Made by a program: the position numbers and the translations under genes. The notes below the pieces were generated by a model, which was not told the DNA's origin, ran no database searches, and was given only the letters and a program-made list of their open reading frames with translations. A DNA stretch of 38,082 nucleotides from Bacillota bacterium (GTDB lineage: Bacteria > Bacillota > Sulfobacillia > JAJYWN01 > JAJZPE01), in the NCBI GenBank assembly GCA_036504675.1, contig DASXUT010000151.1, forward strand, positions 1 through 38,082, read 5' to 3'. Below are positions 29,243 through 31,181 of the stretch, one piece after another (position 1 is the stretch's first letter; the number at the start of each line of letters is the position of its first letter).

Positions 29243-29866
29243 TTACCTCTTTTCCTGGCCGGTTGGGTCGTCGGACGAGGCCAAGCCGGGCGAAGCGGAA
29301 CCCTCTTCTTTCCCGACTCGCCGGAGGTAGGTCAAGGAGGTCGATCCATACCGGCCTTCGCCGGCCTCGAGCAAGCCCGGCGGCAGCCGGCCGACCGCCT
29401 CGTTTTGGCTGTGCTGGATGACGATGATGCCGCCCGGTGCCAGGAGGGCCGGTTGATCGGCCAATCGCTCGAGGGTGTCCTGGACCAACCCGTGATCGTA
29501 CGGGGGATCCAGGAAGATGACGTCAAAACGCCGCCCCTGACGGGCCAGCCACGGGAGGGCATGCTCGACCCGGCCTCTGAAGACCATTCCCGAAGCGGCC
29601 AGGCCGGTCAGCTCCAGGTTGGCTTGGATCAACCGCTGGCAACGCGGATCGTCTTCGGCCATCACCGCTTGACTGGCGCCGCGGCTGAGGGCCTCGATGC
29701 CCACCGCCCCGGTGCCGGCGAAGAGATCCAACCAAGCGCGATCGACCACGTATTCTCGAAGGACGTTGAAGAGGGCCCCGCGGACGAGATCGGAGGTCGG
29801 CCGGGGATCCGAACCGGGGAGTGATTTGAGTCGGTGTCCTTTGGCCATGCCGGCGATCACGCGCAC
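29243..29866 (-). CDS. rsmD: 16S rRNA (guanine-966-N2)-methyltransferase RsmD
   Basis: RsmD methylates G966 of 16S rRNA. The 207-residue Rossmann methyltransferase has MRVIAGMAKGHRLKSLPG, RPTSDLVRGALFNVL, DLFAGTGAVGIEALSRGA and the catalytic FLDPPYDHG. The C-terminal tail past YLRRVGKEEG is short and hydrophilic. The GTG start at 29866 is supported by homology from the first residue. It heads the rsmD-coaD-coiled coil-sepM operon and is divergent from the csfG-like RNA and gpr. Confidence 0.95.
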   Translation of the reverse strand: MRVIAGMAKGHRLKSLPGSDPRPTSDLVRGALFNVLREYVVDRAWLDLFAGTGAVGIEALSRGASQAVMAEDDPRCQRLIQANLELTGLAASGMVFRGRVEHALPWLARQGRRFDVIFLDPPYDHGLVQDTLERLADQPALLAPGGIIVIQHSQNEAVGRLPPGLLEAGEGRYGSTSLTYLRRVGKEEGSASPGLASSDDPTGQEKR

Positions 29867-29928: not shown

Positions 29929-29959
29929 TGCATAATGCCGTTCACTGGCAATCATAATA
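29929..29959 (+). promoter_or_regulatory. Sigma-G promoter of the csfG-like RNA
   Basis: TGCATA (29929-29934), 18 bp, then CATAATA (29953-29959). This matches every position of the Bacillus sigma-G consensus (-35 YGHATR, -10 CATAMTA, spacer 17-18). Transcription would begin near 29966 on the plus strand. Confidence 0.78.
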
Positions 29960-29983
29960 CCGACTGAGAAAGTTCGGTTTCAA
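29954..29983 (-). promoter_or_regulatory. Probable sigma-A promoter of the rsmD operon
   Basis: On the minus strand TTGAAA (29983-29978), 18 bp, then TATTAT (29959-29954). The -10 hexamer occupies the same base pairs as the sigma-G -10 on the other strand. The leader before rsmD would be about 80 nt; it contains no other clear element. Confidence 0.55.
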
Positions 29984-30054
29984 ACCTCCCCATTGGCTCT
30001 TCCTCCGGTTTCTCCTCTCCCAACTTGGCTGCGAGCGATCGCAGCCCTTTTTTT
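29966..30054 (+). ncRNA. csfG: csfG-like forespore small RNA (pyrimidine-rich core)
   Basis: The segment between the sigma-G promoter and a strong terminator would give an RNA of about 85-90 nt. I find no start codon with a ribosome-binding site in it. Its middle is strikingly pyrimidine-rich: CCTCCCC (29985-29991), CTCTTCCTCC (29997-30006) and TTTCTCCTCTCCC (30009-30021), framed by a weak 5' hairpin (GAAA/TTTC, 29968-29981) and the terminator stem. B. subtilis csfG is a forespore RNA made under sigma-F and sigma-G, conserved in endospore formers, with a pyrimidine-rich core, located next to ylbH, the rsmD orthologue. Position beside rsmD, promoter class and layout all agree. The identification is from features and synteny, not from an alignment. 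Confidence 0.68.
30027..30054 (+). terminator. Strong rho-independent terminator of the csfG-like RNA
   Basis: A perfect 8-bp stem GGCTGCGA / TCGCAGCC with tetraloop GCGA is followed by CTTTTTTT (30047-30054). It is oriented plus and has no protein gene upstream, which is what revealed the small RNA. Confidence 0.92.
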
Positions 30055-30191
30055 GGCACTTCGGCGCAGGTTGGCAAAATCCTCCCCGAGAACCGGCCGG
30101 CGGACCTTCGCCCCGCCCGCCCACCGGGACCGCATAGTGACGCCGCCCGGCGCAGAGACTAGCCCCAATGAGCTGGGGAACGAGGGATTCA

Positions 30192-31181
30192 ATGCGAACT
30201 TCAGGTTCTCCGCGGCACCATCGTGACGTCCGCACCGATCTGGCCATCGAGACCCACGACTACCTGACCAGTGGCGGGCGACAAGCCGTCCCCGGGGTCG
30301 ACACCGAGGAATACGAAGAAGACGGCGTGGTCGTCACCCGGGTCCGGATCAGGACCCCGCAAGGGGCCCAGGAAATGGGCAAGGCCATCGGCAACTACGT
30401 CACCATCCAGGCGACCGCCCTCCGGAAGCGGAACCGGGACCTTCAGGAGAAGGTCGGCAGCATCTTCGGCGAGGAGGTCGCCCGCCTCCTCCGGCTGCGG
30501 CCGGGTGACTCGGTCTTCATCGTCGGCCTCGGGAACTGGAACGCTACCCCCGATGCCCTTGGCCCCAGGGTCGTCAACCAGGTCCTGGTCACCAGGCACC
30601 TGCTGGACTTCGTCCCGGGGGACCTACGTGGCCAGCTTCGGTCGGTCAGCGCCTTGGCCCCCGGGGTCCTTGGGATCACCGGCATTGAGACCGGGGACAT
30701 CATCCGCGGCATCGTCGACCGGCTGAGACCCGATGTGGTCATCGCCGTCGACGCTCTGGCCGCCCGCAAGTTGGACCGGATCCTGACCACCGTCCAGATT
30801 GCCGACTCGGGGATCCAGCCGGGCTCCGGGGTGGGCAACAGGCGGGTCGCCATCACCTCGGAGACGCTCGGCTGTCGAACGGTGGCCGTCGGCGTGCCCA
30901 CCGTGGTCCACGCGATGACCATCGCCAATGACACCATCGACATCCTCATCGACCAACTCAAGGACGAGAGGCAATTCTATGAGATGCTCGACGAGATGGG
31001 CGAGCCGGACAAGGAGGCGGTCATCCGTGAGGTCCTGACGCCGGCCTTTGGCGACCTGATGGTTACCCCCAAGGAGATCGACGTCTACGTCGAAGACCTG
31101 GCCAAGATCGTCGCCGGGGGGCTGAACGCGGCCCTCCACGAGGGGATCGCCCGCGACGAGATCATGCGCTATCTGAGTTAG
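30192..31181 (+). CDS. gpr: Germination protease GPR
   Basis: GPR is made as a zymogen in the forespore and degrades alpha/beta-type SASPs when spores germinate. From ATG 30192 the protein has 329 residues, starting with a short propeptide region before VRTDLAIETHDYL. Two catalytic aspartates of this family are visible: Asp121 in GLGNWNATPDALGP and Asp187 in VIAVDALAARK. Other motifs: GIETGDIIRGIVDRLRPD, DSGIQPGSGVGNRR and LGCRTVAVGVPTVV. ATG 30192 is preceded by GAGGGATTCA; an upstream ATG at 30168 has no ribosome-binding site. The 137 bp after the csfG terminator show no clear sigma-F or sigma-G promoter, so read-through is possible. It converges on a SASP gene, its likely substrate. Confidence 0.96.
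   Translation: MRTSGSPRHHRDVRTDLAIETHDYLTSGGRQAVPGVDTEEYEEDGVVVTRVRIRTPQGAQEMGKAIGNYVTIQATALRKRNRDLQEKVGSIFGEEVARLLRLRPGDSVFIVGLGNWNATPDALGPRVVNQVLVTRHLLDFVPGDLRGQLRSVSALAPGVLGITGIETGDIIRGIVDRLRPDVVIAVDALAARKLDRILTTVQIADSGIQPGSGVGNRRVAITSETLGCRTVAVGVPTVVHAMTIANDTIDILIDQLKDERQFYEMLDEMGEPDKEAVIREVLTPAFGDLMVTPKEIDVYVEDLAKIVAGGLNAALHEGIARDEIMRYLS

Follow-up and report, generated by a model that had tools for sequence, protein, structure and literature searches.

The element at positions 29930–30054 of the window (the whole 38,082-nt stretch of DNA analyzed here) is, to judge from its sequence, a copy of csfG, a non-coding small RNA of Bacillus subtilis spores, since it unites the same 25-nt core, a divergently oriented rsmD gene, a sigma-G-type promoter and a terminator on the same strand. 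Our data suggest that this csfG, from a GC-rich, deep-branching, spore-forming member of the Bacillota, is probably a forespore non-coding RNA that pairs with the Shine-Dalgarno (SD) regions of several mRNAs. The sequence comparisons speak directly to its identity, synteny, promoter type, terminator, strand and link with a sporulation gene (Table 1). An earlier note, made from the letters of this DNA, had recognized csfG in a GC-rich, probably deep-branching spore former, and core, synteny, promoter and terminator all agree with that identification.

Table 1 Features of the csfG locus and the candidate rpoD site
Feature	Position	Strand	Description
Sigma-G-type promoter	29930–29959	plus	−35 GCATA 29930–29934; 18-nt spacer; −10 CATAATA 29953–29959
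Predicted csfG transcript, non-coding	~29966/29967–30054	plus	~88 nt; start inferred from the promoter
C-rich motif CCTCCCCAT	29985–29993	plus	Aligns with the CCCTCCCCCAT motif found upstream in other csfG loci
csfG core CTCTTCCTCCGGTTTCTCCTCTCCC	29997–30021	plus	Near-invariant, from identity across loci; 3' half is UUUCUCCUCUCCC
Intrinsic terminator	30027–30054	plus	GGCTGCGA-gcga-TCGCAGCC, then C and T7; sequence reading and fold
rsmD (ylbH)	29243–29866	minus	TIGR00095, 142.5 bits (cut-off 117.5); divergent neighbor of csfG
gpr, germination protease	30168 or 30192 to 31181	plus	TIGR01441, 387.8 bits (cut-off 120)
Weaker sigma-G-like site upstream of gpr	30132–30161		GCATA 30132–30136; 18-nt spacer; GAGACTA 30155–30161
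Sigma-70-like promoter, suited to rsmD	29983–29954	minus	TTGAAA-18-TATTAT; score 10/12
Candidate rpoD site	G000:C154:20037–20057 (L295)		With L296 and L297; site identical in three family genomes

The csfG locus and its conservation

The csfG interval is flanked by rsmD on the minus strand and, downstream on the plus strand, by gpr, for which the ATG at 30192 is the preferred start and 30168 a possible one. Adjacency to rsmD, which the earlier note had likened to that of B. subtilis csfG, was confirmed by the TIGR00095 identification and recurs elsewhere: rsmD lies divergently upstream in 83 of 96 csfG-oriented loci, typically 100–250 nt away. Downstream on the same strand, gpr was found in at least 33 of the 96, a lower bound because many of the fetched stretches were short, and about half of these gpr cases were fetched via gpr. 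The weaker sigma-G-like site ahead of gpr would start its transcription at ~30168, with the ATG at 30192. The minus-strand promoter on the rsmD side overlaps the csfG promoter, and the −10 bases are common to both on opposite strands.

The csfG promoter had been described as a perfect TGCATA-18-CATAATA, and its coordinates were borne out (by sequence reading, the TGCATA hexamer occupies 29929–29934). It attains the maximum of our custom scoring scheme (12.5/12.5), whose weights follow the known consensus rather than a fit to these loci. Scores of at least 11/12.5 occurred in 75% of 95 upstream regions versus 3.7% of dinucleotide shuffles. We took the transcript to start ~7 nt past the −10 element and to end with the T7 run at 30054. 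The proposed terminator likewise has its stem (30027–30046; 8 bp, 6 of them GC, loop of 4) and, after a C, its T7 in the expected place, but shuffled sequence, too, yields such a pattern fairly often (0.4 expected per 400 bp), and its evidential weight therefore comes from comparison across loci. A strong hairpin stands 3' of the core in 86 of the 96 loci (90%, versus 6% of shuffles); in 53 of these 86 the 12 nt that follow contain five or more T, and in none of the 86 is the hairpin preceded by an A-rich flank of the kind expected for the other strand. Together, the promoters, the T-tailed hairpins and the lack of A-rich flanks fix the strand of csfG.

Structure alone would not have picked out the element, since the terminator dominates its predicted fold in the window (−21.8 kcal/mol, z −1.7). 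Our search for a covarying 5' hairpin found, in the GAAGAGC/GCTCTTC stem of one group, no two-sided change, which neither supports nor refutes RNA structure.

Of 21 near genomes searched by BLAST with 135 nt, 14 contained the element, most of them from other families of the class; outside the window's family only ~28–40 nt of the core align, at 90–100% identity. The 25-nt core was unchanged in 69 of 174 fetched loci (the window included, and some loci repeating one genome), while flanks and stems differ across the sampled phylum. Across an aligned set of 64 diverse sequences, eight columns of TTTCTCCTCT never change and the other two vary in a single lineage; lineage-specific variants fall mostly in the middle CCGG, which becomes CCAG, CCAA, TCAA or TATG. 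In a B. subtilis-like genome (G159, 3.6 Mb) 24 of the 25 positions agree. Promoter, core and terminator are thus all kept in relatives, whereas the earlier note had listed a lack of such conservation among the signs that would speak against csfG. One genome, G069, carries two csfG copies near contig ends (C4:227395–227441 and C18:244187–244233); they are probably one locus duplicated by assembly, or possibly a true repeat.

The element shares with B. subtilis csfG its core, divergent rsmD (ylbH), sigma-F/G-type control (here at the sequence level), terminator and strand. It differs in being GC-rich, in its weaker 5' hairpin, in its length (~88 nt, compared with the 136-nt peak of B. subtilis CsfG; PMC3574147) and in its neighbor on the other side, which is gpr in the window and ylbG in B. 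subtilis.

Proposed function and candidate targets

For csfG we infer forespore expression, a base-pairing mode of action and several targets. RNA polymerase with sigma-G (possibly sigma-F) would initiate csfG transcription at the 29930–29959 promoter in the forespore and stop at the terminator ending at 30054, yielding a non-coding RNA of ~88 nt. The C-rich motif and, within the core, the open UUUCUCCUCUCCC would be its likely working parts: both may pair with purine-rich SD regions of several mRNAs and so lower translation during spore maturation, in the manner of the C-rich regions of RoxS and FsrA.

Over the 96 loci, most of UUUCUCCUCUCCC is predicted to be highly accessible (0.6–0.85) and CCUCC moderately so; accessibility is low at CUCUUC and GG, which are as a rule paired with the RNA's 5' portion. 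The open part of the core is complementary to strong SD sequences, and B. subtilis CsfG has been grouped with RoxS and FsrA for its C-rich regions (PMC8216469, PMC9147052, PMC4409812); together these favor SD pairing. The anti-SD character that the earlier note had read in the core is plausible on sequence grounds. Within the window's lineage, UUUCUC is paired with a 5' GAGAAA in the fold of lowest energy, which makes the open state of the core less clear there. No CsfG target or role was known to the studies cited here (PMC8216469, PMC9147052, PMC4409812), in keeping with the earlier description of a poorly understood family.

RoxS/RsaE and FsrA of Firmicutes resemble csfG in having single-stranded, C-rich regions for which SD binding has been proposed (PMC8216469, PMC4409812) and differ from it in sequence, regulation and locus; the RsaE model RF01820 had no match in the window's genome. 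A weak 23-bit similarity (cut-off 41 bits) to RF00519 (suhB/mmgR) extends on the plus strand over the CU-rich stretch and the terminator, probably through convergence of C-rich sequence plus a terminator.

Whole-core near-complements were not clearly enriched in 80 genomes (35 extra sites, versus 18 for the reversed control) and lay mostly in Glu-rich coding sequence. Among these 80 genomes no whole-core target was common to more than one family, and no orthologous whole-core target other than rpoD was found. A small RNA with many targets does not obviously need 25 frozen positions, which leaves room for a protein partner or a single dominant target. Accordingly, what holds the core constant might be a single unchanging partner, for example a conserved RNA-binding protein, and not many mRNAs, a reading we consider unlikely though worth keeping in view. 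The near constancy of 25 nt over the sampled phylum amid varying flanks and stems would fit such a partner, as would the co-purification of B. subtilis CsfG with Hfq (22.9-fold; PMC3574147); however, the middle CCGG does vary, so that the core is not wholly fixed, and a ribosomal RNA partner failed. Thirteen nucleotides of the core complement, AAACCGGAGGAAG, match helix 40 (h40) of 16S rRNA in B. subtilis-like and many other lineages, but changes on one side are not matched on the other. In G057 the core is kept and h40 reads AAGGCGGAGG; in G105 and G140 the core is changed to CCTTCAATTT and the 16S rRNA reads AACACGGAGG; in G144 the core is changed to CCTTCGTTT and the 16S rRNA stays AAACCGGAGG. 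We therefore rejected 16S rRNA as the target.

The SD and start region of rpoD (sigma-A), GAAAGGGGAAACCGGATGAAGAGCC, is complementary to the csfG core at 22 of 25 positions, plus one G-U pair. It was the one orthologous site to emerge when the three genomes of the window's family were examined for complements of the core. If csfG silenced this housekeeping sigma factor, it would favor sigma-F/sigma-G over sigma-A in the forespore. The predicted core–rpoD energy is −41.4 kcal/mol in the window's family, compared with −17 to −32 in 14 other genomes with a located rpoD start, and none of 707 sampled SD-plus-start windows reached −41.4 kcal/mol, in a pool that was partly selected for similarity and so makes a harsh null. 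A rough extreme-value fit nonetheless predicts tens of equally good starts per genome against this GC-rich, purine-rich background, and none of 30 other genomes scanned had a full-core match at rpoD. Unconserved elsewhere and unexceptional in energy, rpoD was rejected as a phylum-wide target; even within the window's family, its silencing by csfG appears improbable from these sequence comparisons.

Transcription unit, strand and coding potential

Rather than an independent RNA acting on SD regions, csfG could be an attenuated 5' leader of gpr, its promoter driving gpr by read-through of the terminator. We find this very doubtful. That gpr is next on the same strand in at least 33 loci would suit such a leader, and at six loci (L041, L044, L077, L091, L096 and L165) similarity to gpr begins 60–90 nt past the core, leaving little room for a promoter; the window, however, has room for a separate gpr promoter (GCATA 30132–30136, GAGACTA 30155–30161), and in many lineages, Bacillus-like ones included, gpr lies elsewhere and csfG is still beside rsmD.

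The public record takes another view of this DNA. We found no Rfam model named csfG; the only Rfam record is RF00516 ("ylbH leader"), which covers the same conserved DNA element as its reverse complement and is listed as a cis-regulatory leader. The covariance match anticipated by the earlier note thus exists, but in antisense and below the gathering score: at a loose threshold, RF00516 (model positions 1–122) matched the minus strand at 30056–29961 with 27.4 bits (E = 8.5e-4 in 601 bases; gathering score 50), and no Rfam family exceeded its gathering threshold anywhere in the window. The B. subtilis-like genome G159 scores 115 bits with RF00516. The model's cut-off recovers just 3 of 149 phylum genomes and therefore leaves out evident members.

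It is highly improbable that the element is in fact a 5' leader of rsmD (ylbH) on the minus strand. Besides the Rfam listing, rsmD lies downstream in the minus direction in 83 of the 96 loci, and the sigma-70-like promoter at 29983–29954 (10/12) could serve it; yet transcription from that promoter would begin with most of the element already behind it, and both the sigma-G-type promoters and the T-tailed hairpins face the other way (A-rich flanks, 0/86). Northern blotting in B. subtilis showed a transcript from the csfG strand but none from the ylbH-leader strand (PMC3574147), so an RF00516 match on the strand opposite to csfG is what one expects. The csfG family is under-annotated in Rfam and modeled on the wrong strand, as a cis-regulatory leader.

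A short peptide encoded in the csfG region is scarcely credible: a mechanical plus-strand frame does run from a TTG over 29993–30226, but it crosses the terminator, the transcript (some 88 nt without a gene, as claimed at the outset) has no ATG, no GTG and no TTG opening a frame that closes within it, and the core positions are conserved in alignment without a codon pattern.

Distribution among Bacillota

We built a profile (R1) from 64 cores, the window's included, and ran it on 398 evenly drawn Bacillota genomes. At E ≤ 0.01, csfG was found in 189 of them, and 171 (43%) were confident, at about E ≤ 1e-6. The window's genome scored E = 1.4e-11, its own sequence being among those that built the profile; a second match there (C124, E = 0.0045) was rejected as another csfG copy, being a short, chance-like site. 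Named carriers include Candidatus Acetocimmeria pyornia, Tepidanaerobacter, Lutispora saccharofermentans, Paradesulfitobacterium ferrireducens and a Symbiobacterium MAG, and no match was found in the records of Sulfobacillus, Thermobrachium, Caloramator, Desulfosporosinus and Pelotomaculum.

The germination protease GPR was detected in 337 of the same 398 genomes, among them 168 of the 171 confident csfG carriers; the three exceptions (G166, G236 and G263) are draft assemblies of ~60–310 contigs. Conversely, 58 of the 61 genomes without detected GPR also had no confident csfG (Fisher p = 1e-12 for co-occurrence, counting genomes as independent of kinship). Another 169 of the 337 GPR-positive genomes had no confident csfG, indicating that csfG is dispensable there or has diverged beyond the profile, as illustrated by G144, whose divergent copy reaches only E = 0.004 with it. 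Thus csfG is common, not universal, among spore formers, or else has diverged past the profile in some of them.

The original csfG paper, by Marchais et al. in 2011, reportedly speaks in its title of high conservation in endospore formers. What appears new here is one more csfG member, a wider and better documented range, the strand error and the under-calling in the public model. Hundreds of csfG sequences are now usable for target prediction, and few small RNAs of spore formers are as conserved as csfG. It is probably about as old as much of the Bacillota phylum: with core, neighbor and promoter alike in this deep-branching lineage, and a confident copy in 43% of the sampled genomes, csfG is probably a long-standing part of endospore formation.
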